From the NCBI GenBank assembly GCA_016212275.1, contig JACRGR010000026.1:1-64000 (forward strand): a stretch of 64,000 bases of DNA, written 5' to 3'. This document shows positions 15,230-58,648 of this stretch, piece by piece; position 1 is the first letter of the stretch; each line of letters opens with the position of its first letter. Made by a program: the position numbers and the translations under genes. Under the pieces are notes generated by a model. The model was given only the letters and a program-made list of their open reading frames with translations, did no database searches and was not told the DNA's origin. The stretch comes from Nitrospinota bacterium. GTDB taxonomy: Bacteria; Nitrospinota_A; UBA7883; JACRGQ01.

Positions 15230-15889
15230 CTACAGCCGCTGGCCGGAGGCCTTGAACCGGTGGTAGTGCGAGTACACTTTTCCCGCATAGCCGGTTCCCA
15301 CCTCGTCCCCATCTTCCAACTGCTGGTGCAATTGGCTGGGGCCCCGGTTATAGGCTTCCAGTGCGAGGTCCAAGCTCCCGAACCGCCGGATGAGTTTTGC
15401 GAGATATTTCGTTCCCAGGCTGATGTTCAGTTCGTTGTCGTCCATCAGCGCGTCCGCGTTTTCCACGGCCAGTTCCATGCCGGGGGCGATGAAGTCCGCC
15501 GTGTGCGGGCGCAGTTGCATCAGTCCCAGCGCCCCTTTCGGCGATACCGCGCGGCTGTTGAAACTGCTCTCCGCCTGGATGACCCCAAGTATAAGGTACG
15601 GGTCTATGCCGTACTGCCCGCTTTTCACCATTATCAACTCCGCCAGCAACGACGGGTTGTGGCGTAGCGAACCGCTGAACCGGGCGAGGATGGTGGAAAT
15701 CCGGGCGCGCGTTTCTATCCGATGGGCGTTTTGGGCGTTGTACTCCCGCTGAGCGGCGATCTTCGCCTCCAGTTCATCCCCCACCCGTTCAGATGCGGCA
15801 ATTTTCGCCTTGTAGTATTCCGCCGCCTGGAAGCAGGCTACACCCGCCACCAGCAAAGCCACAGAAAGGCATTTAGTTACCGGTCTCAT
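15230..15889 (-). CDS. Lytic transglycosylase (SLT domain)
   Basis: A 219-residue peptidoglycan lyase. An N-terminal hydrophobic segment (CLSVALLVAGVACFQAA) acts as signal or anchor, followed by a helical region and the SLT/goose-lysozyme-like domain from about residue 85. The catalytic Glu lies in IQAESSFNSRAVS, followed by KGALGLMQL and AYNRGPSQ, all diagnostic of family 1 lytic transglycosylases. It would cleave the glycan strand in the periplasm. ATG 15889 has AAAGGGG at good spacing and is preferred over the ATG at 15907. Could serve wall turnover or insertion of secretion or flagellar structures. Confidence 0.92.
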   Translation of the reverse strand: MRPVTKCLSVALLVAGVACFQAAEYYKAKIAASERVGDELEAKIAAQREYNAQNAHRIETRARISTILARFSGSLRHNPSLLAELIMVKSGQYGIDPYLILGVIQAESSFNSRAVSPKGALGLMQLRPHTADFIAPGMELAVENADALMDDNELNISLGTKYLAKLIRRFGSLDLALEAYNRGPSQLHQQLEDGDEVGTGYAGKVYSHYHRFKASGQRL

Positions 15890-16203
15890 ATTAGTACCCC
15901 TTTCCAAACTGCTATGTGCATTGATGCCTGATCAAGTTGTCTCAATCCAGTTGGCCTTGAGCGGCCAAATTTTCGCTATATATTCGTTATGCGTATTTTC
16001 TGTTTTTATTTAATGCAATTTTACCGATTAGGTATGGTTCTTGAGTTATATACTGGTGGCAAGAGGAATGTTAGAGGAGTTGGACCGAAAGGTCAAGCAT
16101 AAAAAATAGAGGTTATTTTAAAACGCATTATTTTACAAAAGGTTGCATTTTTTGATTTTGGTTTTGCCAGAGGGCGAAACGTCAGGGAGTTGACGCGAAC
16201 GTT
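15890..16203. other. AT-rich divergent intergenic region
   Basis: About 310 bases between the transglycosylase and the divergent repeat-protein gene. It is clearly AT-richer than its surroundings and likely holds both promoters. A short hairpin (TTGGCC-TTGAGC-GGCCAA, 15951-15968) followed by ATTTTC is visible. No coding potential is seen. Confidence 0.5.
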
Positions 16204-19148
16204 ATGGTTTTGACCTGTCCGAAGTGTTTGAGCCGGTACGAGGTGGATGCTTCGTCCATCCCGGAAGAGGGAAGTTACGCCCGTTGCGCCACCTGTGAAA
16301 ATATATTTTTTGTCAAAAAGAAGAAAAAATCGGCGAAAAAACCGGCCGTTCAGGAACTGGCCCCTGAGCCGGTAGTGGCAAAAGAACCGGCTGTTTCACC
16401 CCCCCCCCCCCTGAATCGCCGCCCCAAGCTGAAACTTTGCCCCCGGAGGAGCCAACCGTCCCTCCCGCGGCACTGCCGGAAACGCCTCCCCCCGCAATGG
16501 CGGAACAGGCGGCAATGCCTGCACGCCCGGCCACTTCCGCATCCTCCGCCCAATCAGATATTGATGCGTTGTTTGGAGGCGCGGCCAAGGTGGAAACGCC
16601 ACCCCCCGCACCTGCTCCCCAGCCGGTTCAGGTTGCCACAGAGGACAAGGGCGCATCGCCCGCCGATATTGACGCGATCTTCGCCGCCGCATCCGCGCCA
16701 AAGGCGGAACCGGCCAAACCGGAAGTCGCTTCGGCCTCAGACATAGACGCGATCTTCGCAAGCGCGCAGGTCGCCAAACAGGAGGCACCCCCTCCCCCGA
16801 TAGCTAAAGAAGCTGTCAAAGAAAAGGAATCGCTCAAGCCGGGCGACATAGAGGCCATTTTGGCAAATGTAAGCCCCGTGGTGGATAACAACGCGAAATC
16901 CGCCGCCCAAAACGATATTGACGCGCTTTTCAATAATGCGCCCAAAGCGGAGCCAAAACCGCAACCTGCACCCGTTAGCTCCACGGCAAGCGCAAGCGAT
17001 ATTGATGCCATCTTCGCCAGCGTCGCGGCACAAAAACCGGAACCGATCAAAACAGATGCACCCAAAAACGAGGCCGCCAGCGCGGCGGATATTGACGCGA
17101 TCTTCGCCGCCGCATCCGCTCCAAAGGCCGAACCGTCGAAGCCGGAGGTCGCCTCCGCAGATGACATTGACGCCATCTTCGCCGCCGCATCCGCGCCAAA
17201 GGCCGAACCGTCGAAGCCGGAGGTCGCCTCGGCCTCCGACATAGATGCGATCTTCGCCGCCGCATCCGCTCCAAAGGCCGAACCGGCAAAACCGGAGGTC
17301 GCATCGGCCTCCGACATAGATGCGATCTTCGCCGCCGCATCCGCTCCAAAGGCCGAACCGGCAAAACCGGACATCGCCTCGGCCTCCGACATAGATGCGA
17401 TCTTCGCCGCCGCATCCGCTCCAAAGGCCGAACCGGCAAAACCGGACATCGCCTCGGCCTCCGACATAGACGCGATCTTCGCCGCCGCATCCGCGCCAAA
17501 GGCCGAACCGGCCAAACCGGAGGTCGCATCGGCCTCCGACATAGACGCGATCTTCGCCGCCGCATCCGCGCCAAAGGCCGAACCGGCAAAAACCGAGGCC
17601 CCCGCAATGGCCTCGCAGGATGATATTGACTCGCTCTTTGGAAACGCGAAAGAAACCGCGGCCCCTGATGATATTGACGCGATCATGGCCGCGGCGCAAG
17701 CCCCCGCTCCGGCGGCCAGCGCCCTTCCGGCGGAACCGGCGGGTGGCACACAGGCGCTCTCCAACGACGATATAGACGCGATATTGGCGGGCGTTCCGGC
17801 CAGCAAGGAAGCCGAAATTCCCACGCCCACCACTGCGTCCGATGAAATTGTTTCGCAAGCGGATATGGACAGCCTTCTTTCCCAGGCCACACAACCGGCA
17901 AAAGAAGAAAAAGCCGCCGCCACCGGTGAGCCATACATTTCGCAAGACGACCTCGACTCGTTGTTAGGCGAAACAAAGGCCGCAATCGAGAAAAAGGAAC
18001 CGGCCATAAGCCAAGAAGATTTGGATACCCTTTTCACCGAAGCGCCCGCCGGGGCCGCGGCCCCCGCATCCGGCGCACAGAGCAACGTGATGGACCTGAT
18101 GGCGCAGGACGACGCCGAACTTGAATCGCTGTTCGCCAGCGAAGCCAGCGCTACCACCGGCGCCCCGAAAGCCGCGGCCCCCGCCGCCGCCACCCAAGCG
18201 CCCAAGGCCGAAGCGGAAGCCGGCATTGACACCTCGATGTTCGAGGGACTGGATAAAGAGGAAGCGGCCCCGATACCTGGCGAAGGCGTAAGCACAAGGA
18301 CTCAAGCGGGTGATACCGCACCCATACTCGAAGAAACGGGGGAGAAGAAGCCCGGAAAACTCGTCATTCTCGCGGCGTTCATTAAATCCAAACTGCCCAA
18401 GCGGAAGAAAAAAGAGTCGGCCCCCGCCGCCGAAGCCCCCGCGGAACCCGTGGCGGAAGCGCCCGGAGAAGAAACGGGACAAAAACCAAAAAAGAAATGG
18501 AAAAAAGCGCTGGCGCCCCTTGCGGCCATGTTGTTGGTAGCCGTCGGCGCGGGGATATATTTCTATCCCAAACTTGCGCCAAAGGCGGTCACAGTGGCAA
18601 AACATGAACCGGCCCCCGCCGCGAAGCCGGAAGAAACAAAACCGGTTGAAACGCCCAAAGCCGGAGAGCCAAAACCGGCGGAACAGGCAAAGATCGAGCC
18701 GACCCCGGTAGCGCCGGTGGAAACGGCAAAAGCCGCCGAACCGGCACCAGTACTTCCCGCACCTTTGCCGCCCGCGCCCGTTGCCCCGGTGGTCACGGCG
18801 CAGGTTGCGCCACCAACCCCGGCGGAGCCCGCCCTGCCTGAACAGAGAACTCTCAACCTCGGCATTATCGTGCCGGTGGACTTCAACACGCAGGTGGTGA
18901 AGGTGCTCTCCGCCGACGTGGAACTTCTGTTCACCGACGAAAAACAGAAGGCGATGGCGGAGAAAAAGCAGTTTCTGTACGAGGTGGCGATAGAGCAGGA
19001 GATAGAATTGTTCTTCAAGGACAAGTTCTACGAAGACACCCACTATGTGCAGGACAAGCTGATGGCCTACCTGTTCGACCGGTTCAAAAAGCGGGGCGAC
19101 ATGGAAAAGCTGTCCGGCGTGAACCTTCAGAACTTCTCCCTGAAGTAA
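16204..19148 (+). CDS. Zinc-ribbon membrane protein with ~20 FliM-like 'DIDAIF' motifs, split by a 13-C homopolymer frameshift
   Basis: The first 65 codons (ATG 16204) encode an MJ0042-type zinc ribbon (CPKC ... CATC), as found at the N-terminus of many deltaproteobacterial membrane proteins. At a run of 13 C (16399-16411) the frame is lost; one more C, or two fewer, restores a 900-residue frame that runs to 19148. That part carries about 19 clear copies of a [SAD]-D-I-D-A-[IL]-[FL] motif in Ala/Pro-rich linkers. Eight of these are near-identical 25-residue repeats, and later forms read SQDDIDSLF, SQADMDSLL and SQDDLDSLL. They resemble the FliM N-terminal CheY-binding peptide (LSQ-x-EIDALL). 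A basic stretch and one membrane helix (KALAPLAAMLLVAVGAGIYF) precede a Pro-rich linker and a C-terminal domain of about 100 residues, which may be FliL-like. Function unknown. Confidence 0.75.
17085..17612 (+). repeat. Seven tandem 75-bp coding repeats
   Basis: Units begin at 17088, 17163, 17238, 17313, 17388, 17463 and 17538 (first Asp codon of each DIDAIF), exactly 75 bases apart and differing by only a few bases. An eighth isolated unit begins at 16667. Each encodes DIDAIFAAASAPKAEP plus KPEVASAS-like linker. The near-identity points to recent expansion or gene conversion. Confidence 0.95.
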
Positions 19149-19223: not shown

Positions 19224-19309
19224 GGAGGGGTGGCCGAGCGGTTTAAGGCGGCGGTCTTGAAAACCGTTGAACGAAAGTTCCGGGGGTTCGAATCCCTCCC
19301 CCTCCGCCA
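19224..19309 (+). tRNA. tRNA-Ser(TGA), CCA encoded
   Basis: Acceptor stem GGAGGGG with CCCTCC (7 bp), D-arm with GGTTTAAGGC, anticodon loop CTTGAAA giving TGA, long variable arm typical of type II tRNA, T-loop TTCGAATCC, and an encoded CCA at 19307-19309. Immediately downstream lies a repeat element that copies the 3' end of this gene. Confidence 0.96.
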
Positions 19310-53160: not shown

Positions 53161-54843
53161 CTACACCTTGAAGTGGGCGATCTTCTCCGTGATCTGCACC
53201 GTCAGGCGCGACATCTCTTCCAAGCCGGCGGCGGCAAGTTCAGCGCCCTCGGTGGTGTTCTTCGCGATGTCGCTCACGCCCACCACTTTTTGCGAGATCT
53301 CATGCGTCACATGCGCCTGCTGTTCCACCGTTTGAGTGATCTGGGAGATGACCCCCGCGGCATTCTCGATCTTGTGGATGATCTCGTCGTACGAAAGCCC
53401 CGCCTGCTCCGAGAGCCGCAATCCCTTGCCCGCCAGCCCGTTGACGTTCTTGATCTGATTGATGGCTTCGCCCGTGTCCTTCTGTATGCTCTTGATGGTC
53501 GTGGCTATCTGCTTGGTGGCCGTCATGGTCCGTTCGGCCAGCTTACGCACTTCGTCCGCCACCACCGCGAACCCGCGCCCTTGTTCACCGGCGCGCGCGG
53601 CCTCTATGGCGGCGTTGAGCGCCAGCAGGTTCGTTTGGTCCGCGATGTCGTTGATCACCAGCACCACTTCGCCGATCTCGCTGGAACGCTTGCCCAGCGT
53701 GTTGATAACCTCGGCGGAAGTCTTGGCGGATTCATCTATGCGCCGCATTTCCTGAATCGTATTGAGGATGTCTCCCCGCCCGCTTGTGGCGGCCTGCAAA
53801 ACCTCGCCGGACGACTGGCCCGCCGCGTCGGTGTTCTGCTTCACCCCTTCCATGGAGGTGGAAAGCTCCTCGATAGCGGTGGCCATCTGCTCCGTCTGGG
53901 CGAGTTGGCGTTGCACGTCGCGCGAGAGGTCCGAGGCGAAGGTCTGCACCATTCCGGCGGAGGTTTTGATCATTTCCGATAACTGCTTTATTTCAACGGA
54001 CTGCCGGTTCAGGTTCACCACCATCGTATTGAAGTCGGTGGCCAGGTCCCCCAACTCGTCGTTGGAGTCCACGGGAATTGAGACCGTCAGGTCGCCTTCA
54101 GCGGTGCGCTTCACCCCGTCGCCGATCTTGCGAATGGGCGTGATGACGAACTTGCGGAGGATGAGTTGCATGACCGCCAGCACCACGATAACGGTGGCCG
54201 CGGAGAGAAGGAACATGTTCCGCGTGGTGCGGCCCACGTCCGCTTCCATCGCGGCGGTCGGCACCGAGAGCCGTATCACCGCCCGAACGGGATGGCTATC
54301 GTAGCCGTGGCAGGCGTTGCACTCCTCCAGCTTTTTGATGGGGGCGAACGTGGTCATCACCCGGTGGTTGTTGAGGGTTTCAAAAAAAGTGACCGGTTTT
54401 TGCTTATCAAGCGCCTCGTTGAATTTTTCCTTGTTAACCGGGAACAGGTTGAAACCCGGGAAATCCTCGGTCTTGGCGAATGTGGAGTCGGCGTGGGGAG
54501 TGAACGCGGTGGAATCGAGGTGCTGGTTCACATGGGCGATGGTCGAGTTGTCCGCGAACGCCTCGGTGCCGTCCTTGCGGAGCACCTGCACCGCGGTGAC
54601 CCCCTCCATCTTTTTGAGTCCCTTGATCCAGTCGAGCACGATCATCGCGTTTCCGGTGACCATCATATCCACGATGCTGGTGGTCATGGAATTCGCCAAC
54701 ATGATGGAGCGGGTCTCCATGTTCGCCTGGTAGTCGCTCTTGGTCACTCCGGTGACGACCACCGTAAGCACGCCCAAGCCAAGAAGAAGCGTGATAAGGA
54801 TGGCGATGGAAAGTTTCTTCCCCAGTGACCTGATTGAACCCAT
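53161..54843 (-). CDS. Methyl-accepting chemotaxis protein with a c-type heme motif
   Basis: A 560-residue chemoreceptor. TM1 is at residues ~11-33 and TM2 at ~214-236; HAMP follows ([21 protein letters not shown]), then a signalling domain with the hairpin tip [41 protein letters not shown] (abridged motif: residues [16 protein letters not shown]). The periplasmic sensor (residues ~34-213) has CNACH at residues 175-179, a covalent heme site, as in DUF3365/Tll0287-type heme sensors. It could sense redox state, oxygen, NO or CO. The two genes upstream encode an 80-aa protein and a di-iron oxygen-binding protein. Confidence 0.92.
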
Positions 54844-54941
54844 CGTTTAGTTGTGTTCTCGCGCCCGCCGTGCTGGCGGCGACGCGGAATATCCCCCTTC
54901 AATTACCGTAACGCAATCCCGGGCAACAGCTTTGTCAAAAT

Positions 54942-54968
54942 GCGGCGGCACCCCCAGGTTGCCGCCGC
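54942..54968 (-). terminator. Hairpin between the 80-aa gene and the chemoreceptor gene
   Basis: Nine-bp stem GCGGCGGCA/TGCCGCCGC with a nine-base loop, followed on the minus strand by ATTTTG. It may attenuate rather than stop transcription into the chemoreceptor gene. Confidence 0.5.
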
Positions 54969-54990
54969 ACGGCACAATCACGCTGTTGCC

Positions 54991-55233
54991 TTATATCGTC
55001 AGACCCGCCTTGCGGACGATCTGCTTGGCGCTGATCTTCACCACCGCCATTTCGGAAAGGTTGTCCATCAACGATTTCAGGGCGGCCAGTGGATCGCCGT
55101 TAACGCTGGCGACCTTCCCGTTCCCGTCGACGTTGATGCCGGATTTCTGGAAAATGCCCTTGATCCGGTCCTTTTCGAGGCTCAGCTTTTGGGCCGTATC
55201 CAGTATCTCTTCAATAACCGCTTTCGGATTCAT
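54991..55233 (-). CDS. Small conserved-looking protein (80 aa) coupled to the di-iron protein
   Basis: Not assigned to a family. MNPKAVIEEILDTAQKLSLE is helical; a middle VDGNGKVASVNGDPLAAL is followed by a helix and basic end (VVKISAKQIVRKAGLTI). The start has GGAGGGAGAG. It begins two bases after the di-iron protein stop, so both are translated from one message, and it precedes the chemoreceptor gene. Confidence 0.72.
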   Translation of the reverse strand: MNPKAVIEEILDTAQKLSLEKDRIKGIFQKSGINVDGNGKVASVNGDPLAALKSLMDNLSEMAVVKISAKQIVRKAGLTI

Positions 55234-55234
55234 C

Positions 55235-56026
55235 TTACTCTCCCTCCAACTTGATGCCGTGCTTGGCCGCCAAGGCATCAACCTCGCCGCCGACATGCAG
55301 GTTGTGGGCGGCTTCAAGATAGGTCGGGATCTGTTCCTTCTTTATGACGCACCCGTGTTGGGGACAGATCATGTCAATTCCGTATTTCTCGGCCACCTGT
55401 TCCAGGCGCTTGAGCGCGTATTCCAGCGCGCGCTTGGAGCCGAGGTATTGGCCGAGGAAGGAGGTCAGCTGTATCGGATAGTCCGGGCCCGCGTACAGGT
55501 CCGTCATGCCGGTGAATCCGCCGAAGGCGTCCGACGAGAACACGATCTTGCGGTTCACGTCGTAAGTCACCATCGAGCCGATAAAATGGCAGTAGGGGGT
55601 CATGGCGAATACGAAGGTGTGGTTGTTGCCGAATACCAGCGTGTCGCCGTCATCGAGCGGGTGCAGTTTCGCCTTGAAACCGTAATGCTGGACAAGCACT
55701 TTCGATTCCAGCGGGGCATGCACCGTAAGGTCCGGGCTACAGTACGGCTCCACCAGAGGGATGGCGGCGCACAGGTCCGGATCCTGGTGCTGGACGATGA
55801 TGTGCTTGATCTTTTTCAGGTCGCCGTTGAGCGCCTTTTGCAGTTTGCCCAGCACAACGTCGAAGAACTCTTTTTTGGCGGAACCCGGGTCTATCAGCAC
55901 CGCGTCGTTTCCGTCCACTATGAGGTACGGGATGTTATTGAAGCTGTTCGGCCTGTCCTGCACCCCCAAGTGGAATACGCCGGGCGCTATCTCTATCGGA
56001 TCTGTAGGATTATAACTTTCAGCCAC
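55235..56026 (-). CDS. Oxygen-binding di-iron protein (ODP-like, metallo-beta-lactamase fold)
   Basis: A 263-residue protein with the flavodiiron-type MBL core but no flavodoxin domain. Metal-site residues visible: H80, D82 and D84 in VQHQDPDL, H147 in PYCHFIG, D166 in FSSDAFGG and H224 in CPQHG. The final His of the classic HxExDH is Leu here. This matches the oxygen-binding di-iron (ODP) family, which in Treponema denticola senses oxygen for chemotaxis. Gene context (CheY upstream, receptor downstream) supports a sensory role over an enzymatic one. GGGGGAGAA precedes the start. Confidence 0.85.
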   Translation of the reverse strand: MAESYNPTDPIEIAPGVFHLGVQDRPNSFNNIPYLIVDGNDAVLIDPGSAKKEFFDVVLGKLQKALNGDLKKIKHIIVQHQDPDLCAAIPLVEPYCSPDLTVHAPLESKVLVQHYGFKAKLHPLDDGDTLVFGNNHTFVFAMTPYCHFIGSMVTYDVNRKIVFSSDAFGGFTGMTDLYAGPDYPIQLTSFLGQYLGSKRALEYALKRLEQVAEKYGIDMICPQHGCVIKKEQIPTYLEAAHNLHVGGEVDALAAKHGIKLEGE

Positions 56027-56287
56027 TGTTTTCTCCCCCTCTAAATATGTTGTCGTACCGTTAATAGGTTATTGACACTGGAAAAAGGACATGAATTTCA
56101 GGCCCTCCCTCTAATATTGTTCCCTCCGGCTGTACGCCATGAATTCCCCTTGCATATTCTACCCTAATGGAAATCTATTATAGGGAAACCCGGCTGGATG
56201 TCAAAAGCTTTCTCCCCCTCTTGCCGGGGCCGGGCATGAGGCAATCCCGCCCCCCCCTAAACCGCCACTAATTTACAAAGGTGATTG

Positions 56288-56665
56288 TTATTTCAAAAGC
56301 CGTTCTATTTCCGCTTTCAATGCCTGCGGTTTGAACGGTTTGCTCAAGTACCCTTCGGCCCCCAGCTTCAAGGCGCGCTCCTTGTCCTCTTCCTTCCCCT
56401 CGGTGGTGAGCATGATGATGGGGATGCCCTTGAGCTTTTCGTCGGTTTTCACTGCCTTGAGGAATTCAAGACCGTTCATGTTCGGCATATTCACGTCGCA
56501 GACCATCAGGTCAACGCGGTTTTTCGCCAGCGCGTCCAGCGCCTCAAGGCCGTCGCCCGCCTGAAGTTCCATCCCGAAATCGGCGATCTTTTTCAGGGCG
56601 AAGCTCACCATCGTTCGGAACGTCGGCGAATCGTCAATTATCAGTACCGTCCTTTTATTTCCCAT
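56288..56665 (-). CDS. cheY: Chemotaxis response regulator CheY
   Basis: A 125-residue single receiver domain: VLIIDDSPTFRTMV with the acidic pair, the phospho-Asp in LMVCDVNMPNMNGLEF, the Thr of IIMLTTEG and the Lys of YLSKPFKP. No output domain, so it acts by binding the flagellar switch or another partner. The many FliM-like motifs in the 16-19 kb protein are possible targets. Confidence 0.93.
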   Translation of the reverse strand: MGNKRTVLIIDDSPTFRTMVSFALKKIADFGMELQAGDGLEALDALAKNRVDLMVCDVNMPNMNGLEFLKAVKTDEKLKGIPIIMLTTEGKEEDKERALKLGAEGYLSKPFKPQALKAEIERLLK

Positions 56666-56712
56666 ATCTCCGCCACCATTCTACCGTTCAATTGCCCGCC
56701 GTAACCACCGGT

Positions 56713-57786
56713 TTATAACTCATCAATGATCGCGCCGGGGATCTCCCCCAGCCCGGCCACCCTGTCGATCAGCCCCGCCTCGATGGCGGACTTCGGCATT
56801 CCGTACACCGCGCAGGTGTCTTCCGATTGGGCGATGGCAAACGCGTGGCGGGCCTTTAACGCCCTCAAACCGCGGGTGCCGTCGTTCCCCATGCCGGTCA
56901 TGATCACCGGAAGCGCGCGCGCGCCATACAGCTCCGCCGCCGATTCTAGCAATACGTTCACGCTGGGGAAATACGGCTCTTCGGCGGGCTTGCCGGTTAT
57001 GTGCGCCACCTTTGCGCCAAATTTTTCGCGGAACATCAGGTGCATCCCGGAGCGCGCCACCAAAACCCTGCCGGGGATTATAACATCTCCCTCTTCCGAC
57101 TCCTTTACTTCTATCTTGCTGGCCCGGTTCAGCCGCTCCGCCATGGACTTTGTGAACCCCGGTGGCATGTGCTGGGCAATGACCACCGCGGCGGGAAAGT
57201 CCGCCGGGAGCAGGGGGATGATCTGCTGGAGCGCGGGCGGACCGCCGGTGGAAATGCCTATCAGCACCACCTCCACCCCCCGTTTCCCGGAGGGAGCGGC
57301 TAGCGGCTTGCCAAGCGCGGCGGGCGGCTCCTTGCGGCGAAGCGCCACCCGCGCCTTGAGCTTGTGGGTCGAAACGCGGGCGGCGACCATGATCTTATCC
57401 ATCAGGTCCCGTTGCAGGTGGGCGATGTCCATCCCCATCAACGATGACGGCTTGGTGATGAAATCCACCGCGCCCTCGTCCAGCGAGGAAAGGGTAATGT
57501 CCGCCCCTTCGGTGGTGAGCGAACTGACCATGATGCAGGGCACCGGCGCCGCCCCCGCCATGATCGCCTTGAGCGTTTCCAGCCCGTTCATCTGGGGCAT
57601 TTCCACGTCCAGGGTGATCACATGCGGGGTGAGCGCGGGAATTTTTTCCAACGCCTCCACCCCGTTGCGGGCGGTGCCCACCACCTGTATCCCCTCGTGG
57701 CTTTCCAGCATCCGGGTGATCGCCATCCGCATGAACGGCGAATCGTCCACCACCAATACCCGTATCTTTTCCGCTTCAGCGCCCAT
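56713..57786 (-). CDS. cheB: Chemotaxis protein-glutamate methylesterase CheB
   Basis: A 357-residue response regulator with a receiver (VLVVDDSPFMRMAITRML; phospho-Asp in ITLDVEMPQMNGLE) and a C-terminal methylesterase domain with Ser in LIGISTGGPPALQQI, His in VVIAQHMPPGFT and Asp in VIMTGMGNDGTRGL. It demethylates receptors for adaptation. The ATG at 57786 overlaps the cheR stop region; GGGGGA precedes it. Confidence 0.96.
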   Translation of the reverse strand: MGAEAEKIRVLVVDDSPFMRMAITRMLESHEGIQVVGTARNGVEALEKIPALTPHVITLDVEMPQMNGLETLKAIMAGAAPVPCIMVSSLTTEGADITLSSLDEGAVDFITKPSSLMGMDIAHLQRDLMDKIMVAARVSTHKLKARVALRRKEPPAALGKPLAAPSGKRGVEVVLIGISTGGPPALQQIIPLLPADFPAAVVIAQHMPPGFTKSMAERLNRASKIEVKESEEGDVIIPGRVLVARSGMHLMFREKFGAKVAHITGKPAEEPYFPSVNVLLESAAELYGARALPVIMTGMGNDGTRGLRALKARHAFAIAQSEDTCAVYGMPKSAIEAGLIDRVAGLGEIPGAIIDEL

Positions 57787-57787
57787 A

Positions 57788-58648
57788 TTATTTTCCCCCG
57801 CCCGGCGGCGCGGACGGCTTTTGATAAAGAAGCACATTCGTCATCGGAACGATGGTGTACAAGGTTGTGACCTTGAAAAGCGATTCCGTTTGACCGATGA
57901 CAAGGTAGCCCGACGGGGCAAGGGAATCATGGAACATCTCGCTCACCTCCCGTTTTCCCTCGGTATCAAAATAGATCAGTACGTTCCGGCAGAAAATGGC
58001 GTCCATATCCCGCATCAGCCGCATCTGTGCGCGGTTGTGGAGGTTCATCTGCGAGAACTTGACCATTTTTTTCACTTCGTCCCGTATTTCCCACTGGCCG
58101 GCGCCCGCAGGAGTAAAATATTTTTTTCGCAATGCCTCGTCCGTGCCGCGGAAGGCGGGTACGCCGAACATCCCTTTGCGGGCCGCCTGCACCACTTCGC
58201 TGTTGATGTCGGTGCCGAATATCTCCACCTTCCAGCCGCCCGCCTGAAACAGGCCGCTCTCCAACACCAGCATCGCCAACGTGTATGGTTCCGCGCCGTT
58301 CGAGCAGGCCGCCGACCATATCCGCACGGTCTTTTCCCGCGAACGCCGCTCCTTCAACGCCGGCAACAGCTCGCGCGACACCATCTCGATCTGCGGGGTC
58401 TCGCGGAAGAAGTACGTCTCGTTGACCGTCAGGAGGTTTATCAGTTCGCGCATCTCGTCGTCGCGCCGGGGATCGAACCGCAGGAAGTGGTAATACTCGC
58501 GCGCGCTCACCAGCTTGTTGGCGTCCATCCGGCGTTTGATGCGCTTTTGAAACAGGTATTCCTGCGCGCCGGAAAACACCAGCCCCGCATATCCGCGCAC
58601 GCAGTCGGAAAGAAGCTTTTGCTCCTCTTCCGTCATCTGGAATGACAC
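57788..58648 (-). CDS. cheR: Chemotaxis protein methyltransferase CheR
   Basis: A 286-residue SAM-dependent enzyme that methylates receptor glutamates: N-terminal helical domain (FQKRIKRRMDANKL), TVNETYFFRE, the SAM-binding IWSAACSNGAEPYTLAM, and CRNVLIYFDTEGKREV. The start is GTG 58648 with GGGGAGAGGGGG; an ATG 12 bases in is the alternative. Confidence 0.96.
   Translation of the reverse strand: MSFQMTEEEQKLLSDCVRGYAGLVFSGAQEYLFQKRIKRRMDANKLVSAREYYHFLRFDPRRDDEMRELINLLTVNETYFFRETPQIEMVSRELLPALKERRSREKTVRIWSAACSNGAEPYTLAMLVLESGLFQAGGWKVEIFGTDINSEVVQAARKGMFGVPAFRGTDEALRKKYFTPAGAGQWEIRDEVKKMVKFSQMNLHNRAQMRLMRDMDAIFCRNVLIYFDTEGKREVSEMFHDSLAPSGYLVIGQTESLFKVTTLYTIVPMTNVLLYQKPSAPPGGGK

Follow-up and report, generated by a model that had tools for sequence, protein, structure and literature searches.

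A Nitrospinota protein family with FliM-like motif arrays on a membrane anchor and a distribution that follows the flagellum

In the textbook account of chemotaxis, the sole contact of CheY-P with the flagellar motor is a single peptide on each FliM subunit. CheZ, a protein outside the motor, likewise uses a short acidic/hydrophobic peptide to bind CheY. Membrane proteins with an MJ0042-type zinc ribbon include GltJ of the Myxococcus gliding machine and the DUF3426 proteins. The FliM sequence LSQxEIDxLL is a widely conserved CheY-binding motif, and changing its Ile-Asp pair in Caulobacter abolishes both binding of the CheY-like protein and motor reversals (PMC5677366). At the stators, the MotB linker is surrounded by arcs or rings of FliL (PMC12222027), and in E. 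coli the binding of CheY-P is tuned by the recruitment of stators (PMC8440544).

Motif scanning of the 64,000-nucleotide stretch of Nitrospinota DNA analysed here (the window) identified 18 exact copies of D-[ILM]-D-[AST]-[ILM]-[FLM] and two near copies (DIEAIL at 16845 and ELESLF at 18117) between positions 16557 and 18134 of the forward strand, all within an open reading frame of 903 codons (16437-19148, forward strand, 903 amino acids; stop codon at 19146-19148). One thousand residue shuffles of the same protein gave a mean of ~0 motifs and a maximum of 1, which bears out the ~19-20 FliM-like copies proposed in an earlier note on this DNA. The statement that many of them stand in the context SQ-x-D-[IL]-D-S-L was too generous: SQ precedes only four copies (17613, 17853, 17940 and 18009) and AQ two more, while approximately nine copies belong to near-identical 75-nt tandem units and carry AS. 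These units, 6.7 of which were delimited by Tandem Repeats Finder at 17094..17598 (forward strand, 93% matches), are the recently amplified portion of the array. The copies outside them sit in unrelated linkers and include, in the non-tandem C-terminal portion (17613..18035, forward strand), the four that come closest to FliM (SQDDIDSLF, SQADMDSLL, SQDDLDSLL and SQEDLDTLF, one of them with M at a hydrophobic position). The linkers are rich in Ala, Pro, Lys and Glu and presumably disordered, and the array as a whole would be cytoplasmic.

Judged by sequence, the array motif is a good match both to LSQxEIDxLL and to the N-terminus of the FliM encoded in the same genome (MSQVLSQEEVDALLRGV); the pattern SQx[DE][ILV]Dx[LI][LF] is followed by the four SQ copies and, in its core, by 18 copies. 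A six-frame scan of the genome for SQx[DE]h[DE] returned four sites in the array protein, one in FliM and one in a glycine-cleavage gene (C25:3722), the last of which, within glycine cleavage P protein, was dismissed as fortuitous. No match to the middle or C-terminal domains of FliM was found in the array protein, the only FliM match in the genome being on contig 79. Across the family, 112 unique motif copies gave a logo of S (46%), Q (55%), D (51%), [DE] (100%), I (61%) or L (32%), D (84%), A (58%) or S (25%), L (60%) or I (34%), and F (53%) or L (40%). Single repeat peptides such as ASQDDIDSLFGNA exemplify a motif that may bind CheY, and SQDDIDSLFGNA, SQDDLDSLLGET and ASDIDAIFAAA are candidate CheY ligands; a cheY gene lies in the window at 56288-56665. 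The array nevertheless uses D-[IL]-D where FliM of this clade invariably has E-V-D, and its partner could therefore differ from CheY.

Silent-site divergence of the motif copies equals that of the linkers (pS 0.5-0.8), so conservation of the motif is not merely a consequence of recent duplication. The ratio pN/pS was 0.17-0.38 in motifs and 0.64-0.94 in linkers, a contrast biased towards constraint because the copies were chosen by pattern. Motif number varies from 2 to more than 20 across the family, with 9, 11 and 16 copies within a single genus.

The N-terminal zinc ribbon described in the earlier note is present, albeit outside the open reading frame to which it had been assigned. An MJ0042-type ribbon (CPKC...CATC; 16204..16311, forward strand) was recognised by PF13717 (2.2e-10, 40.7 bits against a cut-off of 30.3) and by TIGR02098 (32.6 against a curated cut-off of 20.9), and all four of its cysteines are invariant in 15 relatives. 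It begins at ATG 16204 in a different frame from the array (ORF 16204-16746), and the two frames part at a tract of 13 C (16399..16411, forward strand); a length of 11 or 14 C would bring them together. In nine relatives whose gene is complete on a single contig, one unbroken frame runs through ribbon, array, helix and C-terminal domain; on this comparison of reading frames we take the true gene to be 16204-19148, starting at ATG 16204 and frameshifted in this assembly at the 13-C tract. As the ribbon reaches the array frame only across the C run, TTG 16437 is not a credible start. The tract is the longest C/G run in the 2.19-Mb assembly and a candidate phase-variation (contingency) tract, sequencing or assembly slip, or lesion; it is absent from the copies of the gene in relatives, and comparison with them gave no DNA-level cause. 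The only other C run of at least 11 in the assembly (G000:C53:4149-4159) falls either at the beginning of a predicted nucleotidyltransferase-like ORF or shortly before it. In one relative (G011) the array gene is split differently, by an indel at a repeat junction (L035:8440-8560) that represents either repeat collapse in the assembly or a true lesion. A tRNA-Ser (tga) gene follows directly downstream of the window's gene, at 19224-19309.

The one membrane helix that had been noted was found at ~18507..18563 (forward strand; hydropathy 2.1 over 19 residues) after the Lys-rich flank KPKKKWKK, and by the positive-inside rule its N-side would face the cytoplasm. Beyond it, at 18849..19145 (forward strand), alignment, AlphaFold2 models and Foldseek delimit a C-terminal domain of ~99 residues, predicted to be periplasmic. 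The window domain (pLDDT 76) and its most distant homologue (pLDDT 88) were both modelled in the order b-b-a-a-b. FliL structures made up the first 10 PDB matches of the former and the first 11 of the latter, with TM-scores of ~0.55-0.78 and best E-values of 2.5e-3 and 4.2e-5, respectively. The matched structures were Helicobacter 7sgn, the fragments 6ahp/6ahq, and chain O of the Campylobacter motor scaffold 9hmf, taken to be Campylobacter FliL from PMC12222027; after FliL, it was mainly SPFH-domain proteins (stomatin, prohibitin) that matched.

The earlier suggestion of a possibly FliL-like domain therefore stands for the fold and fails for sequence profiles. The FliL Pfam profile (PF03748) did not match the window domain and matched only one of 15 family members, at E 0.075; hhalign of the domain against FliL gave P 0.041, whereas a control alignment of the two ordinary FliL families of these genomes (FliL with FliL2) gave 2.7e-18. 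The HMM comparison proposed in the note thus did not join the two, and the sequence comparisons yielded no proof of homology to FliL. On the models, we take the domain to be of FliL fold and probably a remote relative, rather than a member of PF03748. Two ordinary FliL proteins are encoded in the genome as well, and an ordinary fliL gene adjoins fliM on another contig.

The design of ribbon, array, single helix and FliL-like domain holds as that of a family, with 2 to more than 20 motifs per member, which in our searches was confined to Nitrospinota. Scanning 84,980 species with the C-terminal domain yielded 10 loci, all from entries titled Nitrospinota, Nitrospinales or Nitrospinaceae, or from 'Nitrospirae' MAGs; two of the 'Nitrospirae' MAG loci coincide with genomes placed in the family and class of the window. 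Clusters of the motif were not found in any of 265 genomes sampled from other phyla, each of which had at most two scattered pattern matches. Within the phylum, FliM was detected in 18 of 24 genomes and the C-terminal domain in 16, and the domain was present in 16 of the 18 genomes with FliM and in none of the six without it (hypergeometric 2e-4, calculated by hand for 24 related draft genomes and ignoring their relatedness). Assembly gaps seem to account for the two exceptions, since in one (G020) the ribbon stands at a contig end and the contig stops inside the gene, and in the other (G004) the close lytic transglycosylase neighbour is missing as well. Two genomes devoid of both FliM and the array gene (G015 and G016) still have 15 CheW matches each, which argues that the gene follows the motor rather than chemosensory systems. 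Association of the family with flagella is, in our view, well supported.

Losses can be seen at the locus itself. The conserved syntenic marker is a divergent gene for a membrane-anchored lytic transglycosylase (SLT; 15230..15907, reverse strand, PF01464 1.8e-25), which adjoins the array gene in 10 of 17 loci compared. Relatives of SLT were found in all 24 genomes, and SLT was rejected as a flagella-specific partner because flagella-less genomes keep it. Where G011 has the order SLT-array-gatB, a 99% complete genome without FliM (G014) has an empty site, with the dksA-like gene and SLT followed directly by gatB; likewise, G015 and G016 retain the dksA-like gene and SLT, and the array gene is gone. 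In the flagella-less G006, the flanks seen in the window (glucan phosphorylase, FAD oxidoreductase and SLT) surround a gene that has kept the ribbon and helix; its motif-like matches number two at most, and the FliL-like domain is missing. These same-locus losses in flagella-less relatives show that the presence of the array and of the FliL-like domain tracks that of the flagellum. The earlier note would have counted against its proposal homologues that lacked the motifs in flagellated relatives while keeping their context; what we found is the reverse, with motifs kept in flagellated relatives and lost, in the same gene context, where flagella are absent. A place beside flagellar loci, which the note suggested looking for, was seen in none of the relatives examined, the neighbours being SLT, the dksA-like gene, gatB and glucan phosphorylase.

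The degenerate orthologue of the flagella-less relative (L136:2580-4184) consists of the ribbon, an acidic tail and a C-terminal membrane helix, and its ribbon region shows a weak match to the GltJ profile (NF033761, 9.4e-6, far below cut-off).

Other chemotaxis loci were noted in the genome. On the reverse strand of the window, 53161-58648 holds a cluster of cheR, cheB, cheY, a metallo-beta-lactamase-fold protein of the ODP family (PF19583, 1.3e-41) and an MCP. In spirochaetes, ODP proteins bind oxygen and serve as chemotaxis sensors, and by analogy the cluster may be an oxygen-taxis system in Nitrospinota. On a short contig (L109; G000:C7:1-8530), genes for a HEAT-repeat protein, a histidine kinase and a CheY-TPR protein come before that of a second FliL-like protein, with DUF3334/CheX and CZB-CheW genes nearby, and this may be a signalling-motor cluster.

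Considering these data collectively, we propose, with about even confidence, that the family forms a motor-associated, multivalent docking platform for CheY-P in Nitrospinota. The protein would be a single-pass inner-membrane component of the flagellar motor, probably placed near the stators by its periplasmic FliL/SPFH-like fold, with a long cytoplasmic tail serving as a flexible string of FliM-N-type peptides (SQxDIDxLF). These peptides would dock CheY-P or closely related receivers, with the ribbon, at the extreme N-terminus, probably serving as another docking module. Many CheY-P molecules could in this way be held beside the switch ring and, because each array site resembles the site in FliM, be buffered or concentrated locally, which would set the strength of the motor response; the platform may be a reservoir, making delivery sharper, or a sink, damping it. 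A more specific version, in which a FliL-fold scaffold around the stators offers a tunable number of CheY-P sites, with sensitivity set by repeat number (which would evolve quickly by tandem duplication) and perhaps switched on and off at the poly-C tract, is put forward tentatively; it would be a kind of motor component not described before. Multiplication of the FliM peptide up to twenty-fold on a motor-linked protein, in copy numbers that differ among close relatives, would be a natural experiment on how the local concentration of CheY-P and multivalency determine switching sensitivity, and the protein would be an example of a FliL-fold protein linking the signalling and stator sides of the membrane.

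Several other readings share part of this evidence. So large a number of sites per chain would also suit a plain sink, which titrates CheY-P off FliM and damps or shortens signals, possibly handing CheY-P over to a CheX-type phosphatase. This is consistent with the failure to find the CheZ domain (PF04344) in the array protein or in any of the 24 phylum genomes (the E. coli control was positive), and with the DUF3334/CheX-like protein encoded on the same short contig as the second FliL-like gene. CheZ, however, is also absent from the flagella-less genomes, and CheX-like phosphatases could replace it; moreover, a conserved periplasmic domain of FliL fold is more than a plain sink requires, and we consider this reading rather unlikely. 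It seems similarly improbable that the peptides serve a partner other than CheY, be it another receiver or a C-ring component, so that the protein is a flexible tether from the FliL-like element to the switch or export apparatus. The consistent D-[IL]-D would fit such a partner, further receivers do exist (including the CheY-TPR protein beside FliL2), and the zinc ribbon suggests a second partner; yet the motif fits the CheY-binding consensus over nine positions, SQ included.

The remaining two readings deny the array a function, in general or in this organism. Slippage could have amplified a low-complexity spacer whose motif does nothing, as the 6.7 near-identical units, the differing copy numbers among close relatives and the frames broken in two genomes by the poly-C tract or a repeat-junction indel might indicate. 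Against this, the motif persists throughout the phylum in unrelated linkers with silent divergence as high as theirs, has been lost only where flagella were lost, and has no comparable clusters in the genomes sampled from other phyla; this reading, already disfavoured, can be given hardly any credence. That this organism carries the gene as a pseudogene, with ribbon and array put into different frames by the 13 C, is suggested by the parting of the frames at 16399-16411 and is in our opinion very unlikely: past the tract the frame stays open for 903 codons, with motif codons that look constrained, nine relatives have the gene intact, and a homopolymer miscall or a phase-variable tract would explain the break equally well. 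A docking platform for CheY-P at the motor remains our preferred reading.

Each part of the protein can be set beside a described system. It shares with FliM-N the core SQ-x-[DE]-[ILV]-D-[AS]-L-[LF] in a presumably disordered context, and FliM has the one further functional occurrence of this pattern in the genome; it differs from FliM in carrying many copies per chain with D-[IL]-D, in being membrane-anchored and in having none of the FliM core domains. CheZ is likewise distinct, as the array protein has no CheZ domain and is multivalent and membrane-bound. Like the MJ0042 proteins, it has an N-terminal ribbon, a long low-complexity linker and one membrane helix; unlike them, it has no GltJ or DUF3426 match beyond the ribbon, and its array and FliL-like domain are specific to the family. 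No Pfam or NCBIfam model covers the array or the anchor, and the open-access literature yielded nothing relevant on multi-copy CheY-binding proteins, in agreement with the earlier remark that no described protein of this design was known to its author. With FliL (PF03748) it has in common a predicted periplasmic domain of the order b-b-a-a-b, for which FliL structures are the best matches and which would lie beyond one membrane helix; it is set apart from FliL by escaping FliL profiles, by a long, presumably cytoplasmic tail with ribbon and array, and by its position outside the flagellar operon. The parts are thus known, and their combination appears to be new.
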